A stretch of DNA of 64,000 bases from Isosphaeraceae bacterium. Its GTDB lineage: Bacteria > Planctomycetota > Planctomycetia > Isosphaerales > Isosphaeraceae. The stretch is from NCBI GenBank assembly GCA_031291845.1, contig JARLIH010000110.1, positions 1-64,000 of the forward strand. Direction: 5' to 3'. This document shows, one piece after another, positions 41,258 through 49,083 of this stretch (the stretch's first letter is position 1; every line of letters begins with the position of its first letter). The position numbers and the translations under genes were made by a program. The notes under the pieces were generated by a model. That model was not told the DNA's origin and did not search any database. It was given only the letters and a program-made list of their open reading frames with translations.

Positions 41258-41329
41258 GGGTCGGTAGCTGAGACGGACTAGCGGCTGGTTGAAGCCCAGC
41301 AGACGGGGATTCGAGCGCCTCCCGACCCA
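41258..41329 (+). tRNA. tRNA-Phe(GAA)
   Basis: Acceptor GGGTCGG pairs with CCGACCC; discriminator A. Anticodon loop TTGAAGC lies between GCTGG and CCAGC. The T-stem has one A-G mismatch at its inner pair. First gene of the array. Confidence 0.88.
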
Positions 41330-41342
41330 CTCCCAAAAGCAC

Positions 41343-41415
41343 GGCCTGTTCGTCTAGCGGCGCAGGATACCGCTCTTTCAAGGCGGAGAGGTGGGTTCGA
41401 CCCCCACACGGGCTG
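41343..41415 (+). tRNA. tRNA-Glu(TTC)
   Basis: Acceptor GGCCTGT pairs with ACGGGCT (first pair G-U); discriminator G, as usual for Glu. Loop CTTTCAA gives anticodon TTC. The T-arm GTGGG/CCCAC is perfect. Confidence 0.88.
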
Positions 41416-41441
41416 CTCGCACCGTTCGCGGTCTGTCCATC

Positions 41442-41516
41442 CAGGGCGTGGGAAAGCCTGGCTAATCCGCAAGCTCGGGGAGCTTGAGAGCGCCGGTTCA
41501 AATCCGGCCGCCCTGA
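41442..41516 (+). tRNA. tRNA-Pro(GGG)
   Basis: Acceptor CAGGGCG pairs with CGCCCTG; discriminator A. Loop TCGGGGA between CAAGC and GCTTG gives GGG. Confidence 0.9.
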
Positions 41517-41535
41517 TTGTCCGTGTGTCGACTGC

Positions 41536-41610
41536 CGGGACGTAGGAAAGCCTGGCTAATCCGCCTGCCTTGGGCGCAGGAGAACGCCGGTTCGAATCCG
41601 GCCGTCCCGA
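41536..41610 (+). tRNA. tRNA-Pro(TGG)
   Basis: Acceptor CGGGACG pairs with CGTCCCG; discriminator A. Loop CTTGGGC between CCTGC and GCAGG gives TGG. A 63-base spacer follows, with CCCCGG able to pair with the next tRNA's 5' end. Confidence 0.9.
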
Positions 41611-41673
41611 CTGAAGTGGAGGCGTAGTGATGTGTGATTGGAAACGCAAACCCCGGGTTGCTCGGTGTCATCC

Positions 41674-41745
41674 GGGGTCGTGGTGTAACGGCGGCACATC
41701 GGCCTTTTAAGCCGGGAGGTGGGGGTTCGAGTCCCTCCGGCCCCA
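41674..41745 (+). tRNA. tRNA-Lys(TTT)
   Basis: Acceptor GGGGTCG pairs with CGGCCCC; discriminator A. Loop CTTTTAA gives TTT. All stems form. Confidence 0.88.
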
Positions 41746-41760
41746 TTTGAGAAAACATGA

Positions 41761-41833
41761 CGGCGCGTAGCTCAACGGTCAAGAGCATCCGGCTGATAAC
41801 CGGACGACGAAGGTTCGACTCCTTCCGGGCCGA
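41761..41833 (+). tRNA. tRNA-Ile(GAT)
   Basis: Acceptor CGGCGCG pairs with CGGGCCG with one G-G mismatch; discriminator A. Loop CTGATAA between TCCGG and CCGGA gives GAT. Confidence 0.85.
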
Positions 41834-41857
41834 TCGGAGAGGTGAATAGGAATGCAC

Positions 41858-41930
41858 GGGACCAAAGTTCTAGCGGCAGAACATCTGGCTCTTAACCAGC
41901 ACGGTGAGGGTTCGAGCCCCTCTGGTCCCA
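41858..41930 (+). tRNA. tRNA-Lys(CTT)
   Basis: Acceptor GGGACCA pairs with TGGTCCC; discriminator A. Loop CTCTTAA between CTGG and CCAG gives CTT; the outer anticodon-stem pair is mismatched. Confidence 0.87.
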
Positions 41931-41945
41931 CTCGGGTGGTTTGTT

Positions 41946-42017
41946 GCACTGGTCGTCTAGCGGCGAAGACTCCGCACTCGTAAGGCGGCGACGTGGGTTC
42001 GAGTCCCACCCGGTGCT
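41946..42017 (+). tRNA. tRNA-Thr(CGT)
   Basis: Acceptor GCACTGG pairs with CCGGTGC; discriminator T. Loop CTCGTAA gives CGT; the inner anticodon-stem pair is A-G. Confidence 0.85.
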
Positions 42018-42049
42018 CTCTGCTCATTGACAATTCGGTGACCGCGAAA

Positions 42050-42120
42050 GTGCCCATGATGTAGCGGCAGCCTACTGCCTTGCCATGGCGGATGTGCGGG
42101 TTCGACTCCCGCTGGGCACT
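42050..42120 (+). tRNA. tRNA-Gly(GCC)
   Basis: Acceptor GTGCCCA pairs with TGGGCAC; discriminator T. Loop TTGCCAT between CTGCC and GGCGG gives GCC. Confidence 0.88.
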
Positions 42121-42135
42121 CTGTCGGAAACGTTC

Positions 42136-42210
42136 CGGGATGTGGGAAAGCTTGGCTAATCCGCCTGCTTCGGGAGCAGGAGAACGCCGGTTCAAATCCG
42201 GCCATCCCGA
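42136..42210 (+). tRNA. tRNA-Pro(CGG)
   Basis: Acceptor CGGGATG pairs with CATCCCG; discriminator A. Loop TTCGGGA between CCTGC and GCAGG gives CGG. Very similar to tRNA-Pro(TGG) at 41536. Confidence 0.9.
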
Positions 42211-42228
42211 CTGAGACGCGAGATTGAT

Positions 42229-42303
42229 TCCGGTGGAGTTCGTGCTGGAACGAGCGCCCGGCTGTTAACCGGGAGGTCGCAGGTTCGATTCCTGCCGCCG
42301 GAG
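42229..42303 (+). tRNA. tRNA-Asn(GTT)
   Basis: Acceptor TCCGGTG pairs with CGCCGGA; discriminator G, as usual for Asn. Loop CTGTTAA between CCCGG and CCGGG gives GTT. Confidence 0.9.
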
Positions 42304-42315
42304 CTGACGGTTTTC

Positions 42316-42399
42316 GGAAGGGCCAGCCGATGGGCGACGGCACCCGGCTCGAACCCGGGCGAGCGATGAGCCTTGAGGGTTCGACTCCCTCTCCTTCCG
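42316..42399 (+). tRNA. tRNA-Ser(CGA)
   Basis: Acceptor GGAAGGG pairs with TCCTTCC; discriminator G. Loop CTCGAAC gives CGA. A long variable arm (about 15 bases) marks a class II tRNA. Confidence 0.9.
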
Positions 42400-42410
42400 C
42401 CTCGCGATTT

Positions 42411-42482
42411 GTGCCCTTGGCCGAGCGGCTGAGGCTCTGCCCTCCCAAGGCAGTCAGGCGGGTTCGACTCCCGCAGGGCACT
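42411..42482 (+). tRNA. tRNA-Gly(CCC)
   Basis: Acceptor GTGCCCT pairs with AGGGCAC; discriminator T. Loop CTCCCAA between CTGCC and GGCAG gives CCC. Confidence 0.9.
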
Positions 42483-42483
42483 C

Positions 42484-42554
42484 TCGGGAATCGGCTAATG
42501 GCAGGCTGCTTGGCTTTGAACCAGGTGGTGGAGGTTCGAGTCCTCCTTCCCGAA
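42484..42554 (+). tRNA. tRNA-Gln(TTG)
   Basis: Acceptor TCGGGAA pairs with TTCCCGA; discriminator A. Loop CTTTGAA gives TTG. Only one base separates it from the preceding gene. Confidence 0.9.
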
Positions 42555-42565
42555 CTTTCTGTGAC

Positions 42566-42640
42566 TCCGGGGCAGTTGCGGTTGGTCGTGACGCCACGCT
42601 CTGAACGTGGAGGCCGCTGGTTCGATTCCAGCCCCCGGAA
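42566..42640 (+). tRNA. tRNA-Gln(CTG)
   Basis: Acceptor TCCGGGG pairs with CCCCGGA; discriminator A. Loop CTCTGAA between CCACG and CGTGG gives CTG. Confidence 0.9.
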
Positions 42641-42653
42641 CTCTCGTGCTGAC

Positions 42654-42740
42654 GGAAGCCAACCGGCCGGATGAGGGACCTGTCTTGAAAACAGGCGGCG
42701 GCCCCTGGGCCGCTTGTGGGTTCGAGTCCCACGGCTTCCG
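42654..42740 (+). tRNA. tRNA-Ser(TGA)
   Basis: Acceptor GGAAGCC pairs with GGCTTCC; discriminator G. Loop CTTGAAA between CCTGT and ACAGG gives TGA. Long variable arm with GCGGCCC..GGGCCGC hairpin. Confidence 0.92.
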
Positions 42741-42752
42741 CCTCGAAGCGCC

Positions 42753-42826
42753 GCCCAGGTACGCCAACCGGCTGAGCGGCTCGGCTTAAACCCGGGCGTC
42801 TGTGGGTTCGAATCCCACCCTGGGCA
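42753..42826 (+). tRNA. tRNA-Leu(TAA), short variable arm
   Basis: Acceptor GCCCAGG pairs with CCTGGGC; discriminator A. Loop CTTAAAC between CTCGG and CCGGG gives TAA. The variable region is only CGTCT, so this is a class I shape, unlike normal bacterial tRNA-Leu. D-stem CGC/GCG is shared with the Leu genes at 43013 and 43363. Confidence 0.85.
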
Positions 42827-42839
42827 CTGCGATCAAAAC

Positions 42840-42913
42840 GGCTCGGTAGGCAACCGGTAGACCACTCTCGCTCAGACCGAGAGATGCTGAGGGTTCGAAT
42901 CCCTCCTGAGCCA
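42840..42913 (+). tRNA. tRNA-Leu(CAG), short variable arm
   Basis: Acceptor GGCTCGG pairs with CTGAGCC; discriminator A. Loop CTCAGAC between TCTCG and CGAGA gives CAG. Variable region about 5 bases. Confidence 0.85.
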
Positions 42914-42929
42914 CTTGCCTCGCGTTATC

Positions 42930-43002
42930 GCCCTCGTAGAGTCGGTGGGAGGCTCGCCTGGTTGTCAGCCAGGAGATACGGGTTCAACTCCCGTCGAGGG
43001 CG
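42930..43002 (+). tRNA. tRNA-Asp(GTC)
   Basis: Acceptor GCCCTCG pairs with CGAGGGC; discriminator G, as expected for Asp. Loop TTGTCAG between CCTGG and CCAGG gives GTC. Confidence 0.92.
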
Positions 43003-43012
43003 CTCGGAGGAT

Positions 43013-43087
43013 CGCACGGTACGCAAACCGGTAAAGCGGCCAAGCTCAAACCTTGGTGAGCTGTGGGTTCGACTCCCACTCGTGCGA
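43013..43087 (+). tRNA. tRNA-Leu(CAA), short variable arm
   Basis: Acceptor CGCACGG pairs with TCGTGCG; discriminator A. Loop CTCAAAC between CCAAG and CTTGG gives CAA. The variable region is about 5 bases. Confidence 0.85.
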
Positions 43088-43100
43088 CTCGATCCAACAT

Positions 43101-43183
43101 GCGTCGGCTGGGCATTGGCGGGCCCGCGTGCCTGTAGAGCACGTTCCCCTGCGGACTTGGCGGTTCAACTCCGTCCCGGCGCA
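43101..43183 (+). tRNA. tRNA-Tyr(GTA)
   Basis: Acceptor GCGTCGG pairs with CCGGCGC; discriminator A. Loop CTGTAGA between CGTGC and GCACG gives GTA. A long variable arm is present, as usual for bacterial Tyr. Confidence 0.9.
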
Positions 43184-43188
43184 CTCAT

Positions 43189-43260
43189 GGCTCTGTCGTC
43201 TACCGGCTAGGACACCACCCTCTCAAGGTGGAGAAGCGGGTTCGACTCCCGTCAGGGCTA
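43189..43260 (+). tRNA. tRNA-Glu(CTC)
   Basis: Acceptor GGCTCTG pairs with CAGGGCT (first pair G-U); discriminator A. Loop CTCTCAA between CCACC and GGTGG gives CTC. Confidence 0.88.
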
Positions 43261-43283
43261 CTTTGGAAGAGATTCTCCCATTT

Positions 43284-43351
43284 TGCGGGTGGGCCGGCGC
43301 TCGTCCGAGTTTCATACGCTTGGAGGCGGGGTTCGACTCCCCGACCCGCAA
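43284..43351 (+). tRNA. tRNA-Met(CAT) or Ile2, shortened D-arm
   Basis: Acceptor TGCGGGT pairs with ACCCGCA; discriminator A. Loop TTCATAC between CGAGT and GCTTG gives CAT. Only about 13 bases are left for the D-arm, so the gene is 68 bases. It lacks the G-C-rich anticodon stem of an initiator. A CAT anticodon could also be modified to read AUA. Confidence 0.72.
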
Positions 43352-43362
43352 CTCTCAACGTT

Positions 43363-43436
43363 GGCACGGTACGCTAACTGGCATCGCGGCCAGAATGAGA
43401 TTCTGGTGCTTGTGGGTTCGACTCCCTCCCGTGCTA
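43363..43436 (+). tRNA. tRNA-Leu(GAG), short variable arm
   Basis: Acceptor GGCACGG pairs with CCGTGCT (first pair G-U); discriminator A. Loop ATGAGAT between CCAGA and TCTGG gives GAG. Variable region about 5 bases; one T-T mismatch in the T-stem. Confidence 0.82.
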
Positions 43437-43449
43437 CTGCCTTCGGTTT

Positions 43450-43522
43450 CGTCCCGTCGTCTAGCGGCGAAGACGCCTGTCTTACAAACAGGTTAGCGCA
43501 GGTTCGAGTCCTGCCGGGACGA
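43450..43522 (+). tRNA. tRNA-Val(TAC)
   Basis: Acceptor CGTCCCG pairs with CGGGACG; discriminator A. Loop CTTACAA between CCTGT and ACAGG gives TAC. Confidence 0.9.
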
Positions 43523-43539
43523 CTCGCTGTGATGTCATC

Positions 43540-43611
43540 GGTCCGCAGGTGTTACCGGCGGCACGCCTCCGTGGTAGGGAGGTGGACCGGGTTCGAGTCC
43601 CGGGCGGACCT
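43540..43611 (+). tRNA. tRNA-Thr(GGT)
   Basis: Acceptor GGTCCGC pairs with GCGGACC; discriminator T. Loop GTGGTAG between CCTCC and GGAGG gives GGT. Confidence 0.9.
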
Positions 43612-43621
43612 TTGCGGTGAT

Positions 43622-43692
43622 GGGCGGCTGGTCCAATGGGACGACACCTGGCCTGCAACCAGGAAATCGGGGTTCGACTCCCCGGCTGTCCA
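43622..43692 (+). tRNA. tRNA-Ala(TGC), C at position 33
   Basis: Acceptor GGGCGGC pairs with GCTGTCC and includes a G3-U70 pair, the known Ala identity element; discriminator A. Loop CCTGCAA between CCTGG and CCAGG gives TGC, but position 33 is C instead of the near-universal U. Reading it as Cys would need a shifted loop and does not fit the acceptor. Confidence 0.78.
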
Positions 43693-43705
43693 CTCGCGGT
43701 GTTTC

Positions 43706-43791
43706 GGAAGGTAGCCGGATACGGTTGGCCGGGCCTCGGTGCTAACGAGTGCGCCTGAAAGGGTGTGAGGGTTCGACTCCCTTGCCTTCCG
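43706..43791 (+). tRNA. tRNA-Ser(GCT)
   Basis: Acceptor GGAAGGT pairs with GCCTTCC (T-G inner pair); discriminator G. Loop GTGCTAA between CTCG and CGAG gives GCT. Long variable arm. Confidence 0.88.
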
Positions 43792-43801
43792 CTTGCTGTT
43801 C

Positions 43802-43874
43802 GTCCCGATGGTGAAACGGAGGATCATGCCTCGGTCCTAACGAGGAGTTCCGGGTTCGAGTCCTGGTCGGGGCA
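43802..43874 (+). tRNA. tRNA-Arg(CCT)
   Basis: Acceptor GTCCCGA pairs with TCGGGGC; discriminator A. Loop GTCCTAA between CCTCG and CGAGG gives CCT. Nearly identical over its core to the next gene, so the two are a tandem duplication with diverged anticodon. Confidence 0.9.
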
Positions 43875-43879
43875 TGTTG

Positions 43880-43952
43880 GCCCTGGTGGTGAAACGGAGG
43901 ATCATGCCTCGCTTCTAACGAGGAGTTCCGGGTTCGAGTCCTGGCCGGGGCA
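43880..43952 (+). tRNA. tRNA-Arg(TCT)
   Basis: Acceptor GCCCTGG pairs with CCGGGGC; discriminator A. Loop CTTCTAA between CCTCG and CGAGG gives TCT. Tandem relative of tRNA-Arg(CCT). Confidence 0.9.
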
Positions 43953-43965
43953 TTGGAGAGAAAAC

Positions 43966-44038
43966 GATCCCGTCGTCTAGCGGCGAAGACATCCCTTTGA
44001 CGTGGGGAAGAGCGGTGGTTCGAGTCCACCCGGGATTA
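43966..44038 (+). tRNA. tRNA-Val(GAC)
   Basis: Acceptor GATCCCG pairs with CGGGATT (first pair G-U); discriminator A. Loop TTGACGT between TCCCT and GGGGA gives GAC. Confidence 0.87.
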
Positions 44039-44041
44039 TTG

Positions 44042-44126
44042 GGAAGGGCCACCCGATCTGGCGACGGGACCCGCTTGGAAAGCGGGCGAGCCATTGGCCT
44101 TGCGGGTTCGACTCCCGCCCCTTCCG
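44042..44126 (+). tRNA. tRNA-Ser(GGA)
   Basis: Acceptor GGAAGGG pairs with CCCTTCC; discriminator G. Loop TTGGAAA between CCCGC and GCGGG gives GGA. Long variable arm. Confidence 0.92.
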
Positions 44127-44157
44127 CTCCGGCGCGTTGCCGGTATTTCGCTGTGAT

Positions 44158-44229
44158 GGTGTCCGTGGTGTAAAGGCAGCACTCCTGCTTGTGAGGCAGG
44201 CGGCATCGGTTCGAGTCCGTTCGGGCACC
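44158..44229 (+). tRNA. tRNA-His(GTG)
   Basis: Acceptor GTGTCCG pairs with CGGGCAC; the extra 5' G (44158) can pair with discriminator C (44229), the His hallmark. Loop TTGTGAG between CCTGC and GCAGG gives GTG. Last gene of the first group. Confidence 0.92.
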
Positions 44230-44258
44230 CTCGTCGTAACCTTGCCGTGGAGGCTATG

Positions 44259-44849
44259 ATGACCACCAACGTATTGGAGCTCCCCACTCTCGTTCTGAAC
44301 CGGCAGTGGCAACCGATCCACGTCACGACCGTCGTGCGGGCGCTCGTGATGCTCTGGAATGAGACGGCGAAGGTCGTCGAGCCCGACGAGTTCCGGCTCT
44401 ACGACTGGGAGGCGTGGGCCGAGCTCGAGCCGGCCGAGGGCGCGCCCTGTGTGCGGGCCGCGCGGCTGCGGCTGCGGGTCCCGGAAGTCGTGAGCCTGGC
44501 CCACTATGACCGGCTCCCGAGCACGGCCGTCACCTTCAGCCGGCGCAACGTTGCGAAGCGCGACCACCACACGTGCCAGTACTGCGGCACCCAGCCGGGA
44601 GGCGAGTCGATCACCGTCGACCACGTCGTGCCGCGGTCGCAGGGTGGGGCGTCGAGCTGGACCAACTGCGTCGCCGCGTGCGTGGAGTGTAATGCCCGCA
44701 AGGCCGACCGCACCCCCGAGCAGGCCGGGATGCGCCTGCGCAAGCGCCCCGTCCGGCCCGAATGGAAGCCGTTTTACGCCGCCCAGGGGGCCCGCGTCTC
44801 GAGCTGGGCCAGGTTCATGGCCCACGAGCCGGCCCTGGTCACGGCCTGA
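44259..44849 (+). CDS. HNH endonuclease
   Basis: This 196-residue protein has an HNH module at about 105-155: zinc pair CQYC, then VDHVVPRSQGG (catalytic DH), the central Asn in WTNCV, and a second zinc pair CVECN followed by ARK. The N-terminal 90 residues (LNRQWQPIHVTTVVRALVMLWN) are the domain usual for this bacterial HNH group. Starts at 44256 and 44259 are both ATG; 44259 fits the GGAGG site better. It begins about 30 bases after the last tRNA of the array, so it may share its transcript. The DNA or RNA target is unknown. It could be a stand-alone housekeeping HNH or part of a mobile tRNA island. Confidence 0.88.
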   Translation: MTTNVLELPTLVLNRQWQPIHVTTVVRALVMLWNETAKVVEPDEFRLYDWEAWAELEPAEGAPCVRAARLRLRVPEVVSLAHYDRLPSTAVTFSRRNVAKRDHHTCQYCGTQPGGESITVDHVVPRSQGGASSWTNCVAACVECNARKADRTPEQAGMRLRKRPVRPEWKPFYAAQGARVSSWARFMAHEPALVTA

Positions 44850-44964
44850 TCCATCCCAACGCCCCGGCCCGGCGCGACACCGTGCCGCGCCGGGGCCACG
44901 TCACAGGGTATGCTTCAAAGATAATCACGTGTAATTGTGCGGAATGGGTGTATCGTTTCAGAGC

Positions 44965-45399
44965 CTACCAGTTTGGCGGGAGTCGATAGAAAAAGGCACA
45001 AAGGTGGTCTCTGGAAGCATCAATGGAAATCGGATGTCCAATATCCTCTCTCTCGTGGATGAGATCATTGCGGTACTCTCGGACCAAGTGGGCGTCCTCG
45101 ATCAGTTGGTTTGGAATCCCAAGCCTCGCAGCCAAGCCGTTAAGGAGGTCTTCCGTCTTCGGGTGGGTGCTCCTGATCGTTTCCCAGTACATGCGTAGTC
45201 CGGTCTCGAATTCGGCAATGAGAAGTATCGTATAAGTGGCTTCCAGCATGCCCGACGCCCGAGCGATATCACGATACTTGAAATCAGTCTTGATAAGCTG
45301 AGCGTTCTCCATCAATCGATCGAATGCGTAGCGAGCGATCCGATAATCCAACTCTACCGTTTTGATCCTCGAATTCCATTCGAATCTCTTAAGCGGCAT
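44965..45399 (-). CDS. HEPN-like protein (possible RNase toxin)
   Basis: This 144-residue, mostly helical protein carries RNDLIH at 110-115, which fits the R-x4-6-H catalytic motif of HEPN ribonucleases, including the usual polar residue after Arg. A helix with acidic residues (LIAEFETGLRMYWETI, about 60-75) precedes it, as in the HEPN fold. Its start overlaps the end of the upstream gene by 11 bases, so the two are co-translated, like many two-gene toxin modules. Known HEPN toxins cut tRNAs or mRNA. The location between two tRNA groups is suggestive. Fold and activity are inference. Confidence 0.5.
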   Translation of the reverse strand: MPLKRFEWNSRIKTVELDYRIARYAFDRLMENAQLIKTDFKYRDIARASGMLEATYTILLIAEFETGLRMYWETIRSTHPKTEDLLNGLAARLGIPNQLIEDAHLVREYRNDLIHEREDIGHPISIDASRDHLCAFFYRLPPNW

Positions 45400-45838
45400 G
45401 CTGCCTCATCTCCTCGAGGACCTCGTTGAGGGCGTCCTTGGAGAGCGGCTTGGAGTCGGCTTCCCGGATCGTGGCGACGGCCTTCTGGTCGTGAGACAGA
45501 GAGTGCAGGTTCCACTCCCCACCATAGTAGTAAAGGCTCGCAATGTCGTCGTAAGTCGGCATCAGATAGAGATCGACAACTCCATCTGCGCCCGGCGCAG
45601 AACGCGCGACCGGTTCGAGCAGTACCGGAGTGGTGTCTTTCTGCATGAGAAGAGCAACGGCCAGATATGACCCGATTTCAGAGTCGCGCAGCTTCTTGTC
45701 GATGCGCCTCGTGAACCAGCCGAGTTCCTTGGCCCAGCCTTCCACCTGATCAACCAGGGTCGTGAGCCGGCCCAGCCACTCATCGCGCAGGTCTGCCGAC
45801 TCTTCGGCGGGTCGCTCCGGTGCATTGGCAGAAGACAT
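45389..45838 (-). CDS. Unknown protein upstream of the HEPN-like gene
   Basis: This 149-residue protein starts at an ATG with AGGAGG nine bases upstream. It is acidic, with a helical N-terminal half (LVDQVEGWAKELGWFTRRIDKKL) and a beta-rich middle (YLAVALLMQKDTTPVLLEPVAR, GVVDLYLMPTYDDIASLYYY). It lacks the GSxxRG motif of MNT nucleotidyltransferases that commonly partner HEPN toxins. I do not recognise the family. As the first gene of a two-gene operon with the HEPN-like protein, it could be an antitoxin or regulator, but this is only positional inference. Confidence 0.7.
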   Translation of the reverse strand: MSSANAPERPAEESADLRDEWLGRLTTLVDQVEGWAKELGWFTRRIDKKLRDSEIGSYLAVALLMQKDTTPVLLEPVARSAPGADGVVDLYLMPTYDDIASLYYYGGEWNLHSLSHDQKAVATIREADSKPLSKDALNEVLEEMRQHAA

Positions 45839-46184
45839 TGATCCATCCTCCTGGCGTGCCGCAGGGCTTGTTGGCCGATCGAACTCGCCCGGCCCACTAC
45901 GTCATTCTACGGACTGGATGGGTGCAGGGCCAGAGACCGTCAATGCGTCTTATGCCCCAGGATCAACCTGTTGACGGGTCGGCCGCGAGGTGGCGATCGA
46001 CACGAAAGGAATCGGCGAAGGCCGGCGAGAATCGCGCGAACATCAGGGTAGAGAACGGCGTCCATCTACTTGACACGATTTCGTACGTTGCACCGCGCGG
46101 AGAAGCAACGAATGTGGAAAAAAGAAAGTCGACCATTGAGAGGGGTGTAAAGAAAGCAGTCGCTGCGAATCGTGTAGTATTGAC
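45839..46184. other. Divergent region between the HEPN operon and the second tRNA group
   Basis: No gene is seen. The region should hold the promoter of the leftward HEPN operon and that of the rightward tRNA group. It shares CACGAAAG (46001-46008) and CGCGCGAACATC (46033-46044) with the leader of the first array. TTGACA occurs at 46070 and TAGTAT at 46175, but they are not correctly spaced, so no promoter is assigned. Confidence 0.4.
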
Positions 46185-46254
46185 AGGGGCGTGCTCCTGG
46201 GAGAGCAACGAGCCTCCAAAACTCGCGCACAGGGTTCGAATCCTTGCGCCCCTG
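46185..46254 (+). tRNA. tRNA-Trp(CCA)
   Basis: Acceptor AGGGGCG pairs with CGCCCCT; discriminator G, as expected for Trp. Loop CTCCAAA gives CCA. The D-loop is short (about 6 bases), and the anticodon stem has one C-A mismatch. First gene of the second group. Confidence 0.85.
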
Positions 46255-46266
46255 CTTTTGCCAAAT

Positions 46267-46339
46267 GCCCTTGGAGTGTGACGGATGCGCACGCGACCCT
46301 CCGAAGGTCGCAGACCAGGTTCGACTCCTGGCGAGGGCA
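46267..46339 (+). tRNA. tRNA-Arg(CCG)
   Basis: Acceptor GCCCTTG pairs with CGAGGGC; discriminator A. Loop CTCCGAA between GCGACC and GGTCGC gives CCG. Confidence 0.88.
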
Positions 46340-46340
46340 C

Positions 46341-46411
46341 TCTCCGCGAGTGTGGTGGACGCACGGCGGTCTTCGAAGCCGCCAGGCCGGGTTCAACTCC
46401 CGGGCGGAGGA
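46341..46411 (+). tRNA. tRNA-Arg(TCG)
   Basis: Acceptor TCTCCGC pairs with GCGGAGG (first pair T-G); discriminator A. Loop CTTCGAA between GCGGT and GCCGC gives TCG. Confidence 0.83.
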
Positions 46412-46417
46412 AACCGA

Positions 46418-46490
46418 GTCCTCGGAGTGTGCCGGATTCGCACGCGACTTTGCGAAGGTCGTAGACCAGGTTCAATTCCTGGCGAGGACA
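46418..46490 (+). tRNA. tRNA-Arg(GCG)
   Basis: Acceptor GTCCTCG pairs with CGAGGAC; discriminator A. Loop TTGCGAA between CGACT and GGTCG gives GCG. Bacteria normally use ACG (inosine) for CGN codons, so GCG is unusual. Confidence 0.87.
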
Positions 46491-46506
46491 TGTCTTCTTC
46501 ACGAAT

Positions 46507-46577
46507 GACGCTGGAGCCAGACGGCCAGGCGACCGGCTGCAACCCGGTTCAAGTGGGTTCGACTCCCACCGGCGTCT
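46507..46577 (+). tRNA. tRNA-Cys(GCA)
   Basis: Acceptor GACGCTG pairs with CGGCGTC; discriminator T, as expected for Cys. Loop CTGCAAC between ACCGG and CCGGT gives GCA. Only 4 bases separate it from the mini Y-RNA candidate. Confidence 0.9.
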
Positions 46578-46581
46578 CTGT

Positions 46582-46645
46582 CCCCAACTGCCGGCTCGGA
46601 TTACATGTACGAGAGGAACGTATCTGGGCCTGTCCTTCGTTGGGG
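46582..46645 (+). ncRNA. Candidate mini Y RNA (Ro-binding-stem-like hairpin)
   Basis: CCCCAAC (46582-46588) pairs perfectly with GTTGGGG (46639-46645). Next comes an internal loop with TGCC on one side and TTC on the other, then GG-CC. This internal-loop arrangement is the same as in the two larger candidates at 46935 and 47076. The inner part has a small CTCG..CGAG hairpin and no tRNA-like module. It may be a minimal Ro ligand or a relic. Confidence 0.5.
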
Positions 46646-46866
46646 GCTCGACCCAGCCTGGCTGCCCGCTGGGAGTACACGATGACGGTCCTAAGGCAGC
46701 GATGCCGGGCGACCGGCGGAGCGAGCTTCCCGAGTCTCTCCGAGAAACGGGCCGCGTGCCAGCGGTCGGACCTTCGCACAAACGAAGGCTGATGCGGGCG
46801 GCCGTGGGATTCTTTCCCGCTCTCGGCGAACCTTCGCCGGGCTGATCTTGTCGATCAAATCGTGTA

Positions 46867-46934: not shown

Positions 46935-47068
46935 ACAAGGCCGACTGCCGGTTGGAGTCCATGCCTGAAAGCAGGAGGTTGTGGGTTCGAGTCCCGCCGG
47001 CGCTGCGAGGTGCCGTAGCTCAATGGTAGAGCGCCAAAAAGCTCTGGCCAATCCTTCGTCGGTCTTGT
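46935..47068 (+). ncRNA. YrlA-type Y RNA with permuted tRNA-like module
   Basis: The ends form an 11-bp helix (46935-46945 with 47058-47068, one G-U). Inside are the TGCC/TTC internal loop and a second helix, GGTTGG/CCAATCC. The centre is a tRNA in permuted order: T-arm GTGGG-TTCGAGT-CCCGC (46981-46997), acceptor 3' strand CGGCGCT, GCGA tetraloop (47005-47008), acceptor 5' strand GGTGCCG, bases TA, then D-arm GCTC-AATGGTA-GAGC (47018-47032). Acceptor strands pair over 7 bp. YrlA RNAs, known partners of bacterial Ro proteins, have exactly this plan. The TROVE gene starts about 400 bases downstream. Confidence 0.85.
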
Positions 47069-47075
47069 CCGAAAC

Positions 47076-47181
47076 ATGCTCGACTGCCGGTGTGGAGTCC
47101 ATGGCTTATCGAGTTCGACTCTCGACCGGCCCGCTCTGGTTCGATCGGGCCGGAAACTCTGCCCAACACTTCGTCGAGCAT
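47076..47181 (+). ncRNA. Second Y RNA candidate with partial tRNA-like module
   Basis: ATGCTCGAC (47076-47084) pairs perfectly with GTCGAGCAT (47173-47181). The TGCCG/TTC internal loop and a TGTGG/CCAACA helix follow, as in the first copy. Inside are a perfect T-arm TCGAG-TTCGACT-CTCGA (47109-47125) and a perfect 7-bp acceptor-like helix CCGGCCC/GGGCCGG, capped by a 14-base loop instead of a GNRA tetraloop. No D-arm follows. It is 7 bases after the first candidate, so the two are probably co-transcribed. Confidence 0.72.
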
Positions 47182-47463
47182 TCTTGAATTCATGCAAATC
47201 CGGTGAAGTCTTCCCGACCACCGGCCTTCTTGGTGTGAGCCCGATGACCCGAACGCGACCGATTCTGCGGCGTCCGTTCCTCCGTGACCCACCGCGGCGC
47301 GGCTCACACCGTCACGAACCTCTGCCCGAATCTTCGTTGCGCGCGGCAACGGGCCGCGTCCCAACTGCCCGAGCGGAGTCCATCGCCATCTCGAACGCCA
47401 GGGAGCGTGCGCCCCCGGTTTGAGACGGACGATCGCACTCCGCACAGTGAAGGAGGTGACCCC

Positions 47464-49083
47464 ATGGCCAACAAGAGCTTGTTCTCCAGCGCGCAAACCC
47501 TGCTGCCCCGCGCGGATACGGTGAACATGGAAGGCGCCCGCGCCTACGCGCTGCCCCCGAAGCACGCGCTGGCCCAGCTTGCGGCGACCGGCTGCTTTGG
47601 CGGGACCTTCTACGCGGGCGCCGAGGCCCAGTTGGCCAACCTCCTGTCGCTGGCCGAGCAGGTCGAGGACAACGTCTTCCTGGCGAAGCTCGCTGTGTAC
47701 AGCCGTGAGAAGGCGTTCCTGAAGGACATGCCGGCGGCGTTGCTGCTCGTGCTCTCGCGGCGCGACCGGGCGCTGTTCCACCAGGTGTTCGACCGGGTCG
47801 TCGACAACGGGCGCGTCCTGCGCACGTTGTTCCAGATGCTGCGCTCCGGGCAGTTCGGCCGCAAGAGCCTGTCGTACTCGGTGCAGCGCGCCTTCCAGCG
47901 CTGGCTGAACGAGGCGTCGGTGAGCCGCCTGCTCGCCGCGTCGATCGGGCACGACCCGAGCCTGCGCGACGTCCTGCGCCTGGCGCGGCCCACGCCGCCC
48001 GACAACGCGCGCCGGGCGTTGTTCGGCTGGTTGACCGACAAGCCGGTCGATCGCTGGGCGCCGGCGACGGCCGATGACCTGCCGGACGAGGTCCGCGCCC
48101 TCAAGGCTTACCGAGAGGCCGCGACCGAGGCAGCGCAGGCCGCCGTGCTGGCCGAGTCGCGGTTCCGCTGGGACCTGCTCGCCGACGCGGCCAAGGGACC
48201 GCTCGTCTGGAAGGCGATCGCCCGGCAGATGGGTCCGCAGGCCCTGCGCATGAACCTGAACACGCTGCGCCGGCACGGTGTCCTCGATGACGCCGAGTTG
48301 GTCGACCATGTCGCGGGTCGCCTCGCCGACGCGGACGAGATCCGTTCGTCGCGGCAGTTTCCGTACCAGTACCTCGCCGCGTACCTGAATGCCGGGGACG
48401 ACGTTCCGCAGGCGCTCAAGGCCGCGCTGGGGGAGGCCGCGGAAACGGCGTGCGGCAACGTCCCCGAGTTGGCGGGTCCGGTCGTGATCGGGGTCGACGT
48501 TTCGGGCTCGATGCAGTCACCCATCACGGGGCACCGCGGCGCGGGCTCCACGACGAAGGTGCGGTGCGTGGACGTCGCGGCTCTGTTTGCGGCGGCCATC
48601 CTGCGCCGCAATCCCGACAGCCTGATCGTTCCGTTCGACGACCGGGCACACCAGGCGCAGGTCGACCCGGGGGATGCGATCCTCAGCTTGGCAGCTCGCC
48701 TGGCGGAGTACGGCGGCGGCGGGACTGACTGCTCCCTTCCGCTCGCTGAGGCGAACCGTGCGCACCGCGACCGCAAGTTCGCCGGCTGCGTTCTGGTCAG
48801 CGACAACCAGAGCTGGGTCGGCGATGGCCTGTACGGCTCGACAGCCGTCATGACCGCGTGGCAGGAGTTCGTGAAGAACCAGGTTCGGCTGCACGGTCGC
48901 GAATTCACCGGCCCCAAGCTGGTGTGCATCGACTTGCAGCCCTACGGCTCGACGCAGGCTCCCGAACGCTCGGACATCCTCAACGTCGGCGGCTTCAGCG
49001 ACGCCGTGTTCTCCGTGGTCGTGTCGTTCCTGGGGGACGGCCCCGCGCGGTTCGTCGCGGAGGTCGAGTCGGTCGTCTTGTAG
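47464..49083 (+). CDS. TROVE/Ro60-family RNA-binding protein (Rsr-like)
   Basis: This 539-residue protein starts at [15 protein letters not shown], with AAGGAGGTG well placed upstream. The N-terminal TROVE domain (about 25-330, helical repeats; [39 protein letters not shown]) would form a ring that holds RNA ends. The C-terminal vWA-like domain (about 340-539) has the metal-site motif DVSGSMQ plus GGTDCSLP. The length matches bacterial Rsr and animal Ro60, which bind Y RNAs and misfolded RNAs and work with exonucleases. The Y-RNA-like genes directly upstream and the 38 tRNAs nearby support an RNA quality-control role. Confidence 0.93.

Follow-up and report, generated by a model that had tools for sequence, protein, structure and literature searches.

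A conserved Y RNA class without a D-arm in a multi-headed Y RNA cluster beside a planctomycete Ro60 gene

Reviews describe a bacterial Y RNA as a stem for Ro60 joined to one tRNA-like domain. The window analysed here, a stretch of 64,000 nucleotides from an Isosphaeraceae bacterium (contig JARLIH010000110.1), holds an element at 47076-47181 on the plus strand, named Yd, that carries a T-arm and an acceptor-like helix, the top half of a tRNA, without a D-arm, as judged from sequence, fold, covariation and a leave-one-out covariance model. The question that this locus raises is whether such an RNA is a paralogue drifting away from a full tRNA mimic or a Y RNA with a different effector role, the two alternatives that had been offered in a first-pass annotation of the sequence.

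Yd ends 282 nt before a gene on the same strand (47464-49083) that encodes a Ro60/Rsr protein with TROVE and vWA domains (PF05731 TROVE, E 2e-8; PF25045 vWA_Ro60, E 2.9e-13; Rsr 2nvo, E 2.8e-21), close kin of which are found in Gemmataceae and Pirellulales. The initial reading of Yd as a Y RNA-type element with a tRNA-like T-arm and acceptor head beside a Ro60/TROVE gene holds, and its description as the second copy undercounts the locus, which has at least four tandem Y RNAs, all on the plus strand. Upstream of Yd lie Ya (46580-46647), a short form scoring 34.9 bits, Yb (46654-46844), the head of which reproduces part of 23S rRNA domain IV in permuted order (ACGGTCCTAAGGCAGCGA at 46685-46702), and Yc (46937-47068), a full permuted tRNA mimic of the YrlA type (Rfam YrlA 49.7 bits, E 7e-10, below the gathering score of 69) with a T-arm at 46981-46997 and a D-arm at 47018-47032. 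Yc, which had been counted as the first copy, lies 7-10 nt upstream of Yd. In the leader of the Ro60 gene, 47316-47383 of the plus strand holds scaffold halves without partners, their order reversed (CTCTGCCCGAATCTTCGTTG, then CCCAACTGCCCGAGCGGAGTCCAT; direct repeats D3/D4), for which closing strands were sought and none found, and which might be either a remnant or a permuted element/Ro60-binding site.

Most of the architecture of Yd can be read directly from the sequence and agrees with the first-pass annotation. The outer, Ro60-type helix consists of 9 perfectly paired bp, with ATGCTCGAC (47076-47084) as its 5' strand and GTCGAGCAT (47173-47181) as its 3' strand, both also backed by covariation. 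It leads into the internal loop that had been noted as common to the first copy, in which TGCC (47085-47088) stands opposite CTTC (47169-47172; whole opposite side AACACTTC, 47165-47172), the same as in Yc. Between this loop and the head sits an inner scaffold helix (GG-U-GUGGAG/CUCUGC-CC), an addition to the first-pass annotation, in which GGUGUGGAG (47089-47097) pairs with CUCUGCCC (47157-47164). The T-arm, TCGAG-TTCGACT-CTCGA (47109-47125), is as perfect as claimed and has the acceptor-like helix (47126-47153) stacked directly on it; here the perfect pairing stood and the length was one pair short, the helix having 8 bp (CCGGCCCG, 47126-47133, with CGGGCCGG, 47146-47153) and a 12-nt closing loop rather than 7 bp and a 14-base loop. 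Directly 3' of it, only AAA separates the acceptor helix from the inner-helix strand CTCTGC, and hence the D-arm is indeed absent; this spacing of 3 nt is comparable to the few nt found in compact relatives. Folded as a single sequence, Yd adopts the same architecture (MFE -46.8 kcal/mol, z -3.15 against shuffles).

The head places a T-arm before a closed acceptor hairpin, the permutation also seen in YrlA (RF02553; crystal structure 6CU1 of Salmonella YrlA), and the resemblance extends to a Y stem with a UGC/CUU internal loop and to a gene beside Ro60/Rsr. However, Yd lacks the D-arm of YrlA, its acceptor meets the handle within a few nt, and its score of 18.6 bits against the YrlA model is far under the gathering score of 69. 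At the gathering threshold, Rfam reports no Y RNA in the window, with YrlA appearing only in a relaxed search. By analogy, Yd probably works like YrlA, yet by the D-arm and the model score it is not a YrlA. It also resembles YrlB (RF02565) in being a short Y RNA beside Ro60, from which it differs by its T-arm/acceptor head; the YrlB model gave no match to Yd at E up to 5, and a short copy in a related cluster (L070 3620-3692) matched it weakly (30.3 bits). Two broader features of bacterial Y RNAs are both found here, namely a long terminal stem with a conserved internal loop, a handle that Yd has in common with Yc and about 197 elements at 47 loci, and a gene adjoining Ro60/Rsr (47464-49083), a linkage that recurs in the relatives. 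Similarly, the 5-bp T-stem placed on an 8-bp acceptor helix with no linker recalls tRNA minihelices and D-armless tRNAs, whereas in Yd the acceptor strands are joined by a loop, there is no CCA end and the whole is grafted on a Y stem; neither tRNA models (RF00005) nor ARAGORN called a tRNA cloverleaf in Yd. As a single tRNA species from which the head could stem, tRNA-Ser(GGA) scored best over T-arm plus acceptor in most compact members. We did not adopt this assignment, which is a lead only, the match of Yd being weak (17/25) and the variable-arm-like hairpin of several compact members being absent from it.

The relatives of Yd bear on the origin of the D-arm-less form, about 30 members of which lie upstream of Ro60/TROVE genes in other planctomycetes. 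An alignment of 12 compact members drawn from different genera (alignment A1) was given to RNAalifold, which, supplied with no structure, returned the proposed fold with 29 pairs, 13 of them compensated; compensatory changes across homologues, the absence of which the first-pass annotation would have taken as a refutation, are thus present. In these 12 sequences 92.5% of the cells of the fold are paired, compared with 34-47% when the strands are slid, and 13 pairs are changed on both sides, where shuffles give 6.0 and slid strands no more than 3. The inner helix is paired in 99% of cells, one of its pairs occurring as U-A, G-C, U-G or A-U, the T-arm is 98% paired with three of its five pairs compensated (including a T-stem swap from G-C to A-U), and four of the eight pairs of the acceptor-like helix are compensated, with swaps from C-G to G-C and from C-G to U-A among them. 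In the same alignment UGC and C-TTC of the internal loop are nearly invariant, and G-TTC-R-A of the T-loop and C61 are invariant, as would be expected if proteins read the T-arm. A covariance model built from the eleven other members, with the window sequence excluded, finds Yd at 92.8 bits (E 3e-22).

The first model also found D-arm-less members outside its training set (L063, L051, L065, L037, L033, L039 and L064), and G254 is a further independent one. Rhodopirellula rubra CECT 8075 and Rubripirellula obstinata, both in culture, are among the carriers of the class. The Gemmataceae loci L024 and G006, in which the Y RNA cluster ends in a T-arm/acceptor head without a D-arm, are probably members of the class as well. 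Loci of more distant planctomycetes (L112, L113) and plasmids of alphaproteobacteria (L120, L122) have heads of this kind too, and a subgroup (L041, L045, L047, L058, L061, L038, L035, L052) has another hairpin in the D-arm position. At the plasmid Ro60 loci, three to five tandem Y RNAs, some of them D-arm-less, were seen (L122 7575-8321, L120 7609-7995, L121 7600-8118), and rtcR is present at the annotated ones, one of which also has an RtcB gene.

It is very improbable, given these data, that Yd is a tRNA gene in decay or a copy that has drifted from the full YrlA mimic and lost its function. Degeneration has been reported for planctomycete tRNA clusters, which contain partially degraded tRNAs (PMC4807772), and a full mimic does lie only 7-10 nt upstream, but every helix of Yd is intact with compensatory changes across genera, so that covariation largely refutes decay, and the match of 92.8 bits was to an independently built model. 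The D-arm slot of the compact members is consistently closed to a few nt, about 20 compact relatives retain the D-arm-less form, with compensatory changes, and the full version with its D-arm usually sits beside it, all of which goes against the drifting paralogue that had been proposed. Given the compensated pairs, the match to the leave-one-out model and the consistently closed D-arm slot, we conclude on comparative sequence grounds that Yd represents a class of Y RNA in its own right, real and conserved, and is a working type rather than a copy in decay. The different effector role was therefore the better of the two original alternatives, the nature of that role being our own conjecture.

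The handle can also be followed beyond this class. Public genomes scanned for the Ro60 protein yielded 53 loci, almost all of them in planctomycetes, and a descriptor of the handle (an 8-bp helix, TGC..GGANTNCA and YTTC) had 123 plus-strand matches in the 130 kb upstream of 54 Ro60 genes, the window's included, against none on the reverse strand, one in 478 kb downstream and one in five shuffled sets. Seven of the eight outer-helix positions vary among these matches with pairing kept, and all covariance-model matches in 601 kb (198/198) lie on the Ro60 strand. Thirteen of the 14 phylum genomes with a model match have a Ro60 homologue too, the exception (G152) being a weak match. Ro60 itself is patchy, as a protein query found homologues in 29 of 294 phylum genomes and Ro60 is present in 2 of 45 genomes of the same family. 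The Pfam TROVE model at E 1e-10 found no Ro60 across the phylum, an artefact of model sensitivity in view of the 29 genomes recovered by the protein query. A DNA-level search of the 45 same-family genomes for the element returned fragments only, because its sequence diverges faster than its structure; the viral contigs searched held no relative, and a scan for promoters and terminators gave nothing above shuffles.

The 47 related loci together hold about 197 Y elements, up to nine per locus, with different heads on one common scaffold: full tRNA mimics (YrlA-like), the tRNA top half, short YrlB-like forms and the permuted 23S domain IV. Parsing separates the heads into full mimics (T-arm and D-arm), T-arm-only, 23S-like and others, with class counts that are approximate because the parser misfiles a few. 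Some short Y RNAs have a 7-nt hairpin loop, CTNNNAA (L025 3438, L026 1546, L042 4594, L043 5526, L045 5337, L072 5242), which varies mainly at its three middle bases and resembles an anticodon arm. The 23S-like head is possibly the strangest feature of the locus. Sequence of 23S rRNA around E. coli 1916-1965 is found in Yb and 13 relatives, identity with planctomycete 23S rRNA being exact over 21 nt in six of these heads and over 28 nt in one, and the 23S rRNA site is recovered with a profile of the group at E 7e-7. ACGGTCCTAAGGTAGCGA stands first and GGACGGCCGTAA, in many copies, last, the order opposite to that of 23S rRNA, and the handle seems to replace the loop of helix 69 in these heads as it does the anticodon end in the tRNA mimics. 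Y RNAs with such heads, which correspond to a permuted segment of about E. coli 1906-2010, lie in the window at 46654-46844 and at L026 1649, L027 2615, L034 4975, L042 5187, L057 4717 and other loci. Their presence in the same clusters makes Y RNA heads look like chosen ligands.

Of 150 gaps separating neighbouring Y RNAs, 73 measure 1-15 nt, a spacing suggestive of processing from a single precursor. The final Y RNA of 26 of the 47 loci stops 16-28 nt short of the Ro60 start codon, covering the ribosome-binding region, an arrangement through which Ro60 might regulate its own translation. A last Y RNA just upstream of the Ro60 gene was observed in L027, L028, L034, L044, L046, L068, L070 and others. 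Both spacings would suit a role in cis within the Y RNA/Ro60 transcript, whether as a signal for processing or as a leader that binds Ro60 and controls its production. For Yd, however, we regard such a role as improbable, since it ends 282 nt before the Ro60 gene, its class elsewhere usually lies further upstream than the leader copy, and a cis element needs no elaborate tRNA-like head.

Here we propose as the probable function of Yd that of a Ro60-bound adaptor that presents a T-arm/acceptor minihelix to a tRNA-maturation or RNA-decay enzyme, where transcription, Ro60 binding, partner and outcome are what we infer by analogy with better-known Y RNAs. YrlA superposes on tRNA with a circular permutation (PMC11472068), and while its Y stem binds Rsr, its tRNA-like head is modified by DusA and TruB (PMC8394870, PMC7790460); the Deinococcus Y RNA tethers PNPase in the RYPER complex (Ro60-Y RNA-PNPase), from which we borrow the proposed mode, with Ro60 on the stem and the head recruiting another protein (PMC8394870). 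Yd is made up of two modules. The handle (outer helix, TGCC/CTTC loop and inner GGAG/CTCT helix), common to all Y RNAs of the cluster, is most likely held by the adjacent Ro60/Rsr, to judge from this adjacency and the common handle. The head is the tRNA top half, a T-arm on a loop-joined acceptor helix, which with the D-arm slot closed stacks directly on the handle. It probably serves as a docking site for proteins that recognise the T-arm/acceptor minihelix alone, such as TruB- or TrmA-type enzymes, RNase P, the CCA-adding enzyme or, as in the Deinococcus complex, PNPase. A T-loop that is invariant without a D-loop partner likewise suggests recognition by protein instead of an elbow contact within the RNA. 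A reader of the D-arm, in turn, would be served by the neighbouring full mimic.

The genes upstream of the cluster bring in another explanation. A co-directional array of 37 tRNA genes (ARAGORN) occupies 41258-46578 of the plus strand, and it looks like a second set, as the genome has about 40 further tRNA genes outside it. The order of the array near related loci is the same as in the window; an array precedes the Y RNAs also in L025, L027, L032, L038, L065 and others, and its end in relatives is commonly Arg(ccg)-Arg(tcg)-Arg(gcg)-Cys(gca). Inside it lies an HNH endonuclease gene (44247-44849, PF01844, E 5.5e-14), with a similar HNH motif in L025, L027, L035, L038 and L065 and likewise in mycobacterial tRNA arrays. 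Comparable units in mycobacteria and cyanobacteria also group redundant tRNA genes, in many cases together with an HNH gene (PMC12803027, PMC9569102, PMC10272220), but the array of the window has a Y RNA cluster and a Ro60 gene at its end.

It is conceivable, if rather unlikely, that the head of Yd is a decoy, drawing away from real tRNAs an enzyme or hostile nuclease that acts on the T-arm/acceptor. It would then belong to a tRNA-array island that shields translation during attack or stress, with Ro60 mainly stabilising the decoy. A second, divergent tRNA gene set with an HNH gene resembles the mycobacterial arrays called putative anti-defence units (PMC12803027), and such a role has been suggested earlier for the tRNA-like domain of YrlA (PMC7790460). 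RNA-repair genes are also present at proteobacterial Ro60 loci. However, the tRNA-attacking nucleases known so far mostly cut in the anticodon loop, which the head of Yd does not have, and the 23S-like head of its neighbour fits an adaptor for maturation or decay at least as well.

Against the single tRNA-like domain of current descriptions, a conserved T-arm/acceptor-only form in clusters with a full tRNA mimic or a 23S piece suggests exchangeable heads, each recruiting a different enzyme. What these heads bind becomes directly testable, as the heads name their own candidate partners, and the full and D-arm-less mimics paired in one locus provide a natural comparison. We give about even weight to the broader idea that planctomycete Ro60 loci encode a Y RNA library, in which one handle is combined with permuted pieces of the translation apparatus (whole tRNA, tRNA top half, possibly an anticodon arm, and helices 69-72 of 23S domain IV) and which would couple one Ro60 ring to several enzymes of RNA maturation and quality control, with Yd as its T-arm/acceptor member.
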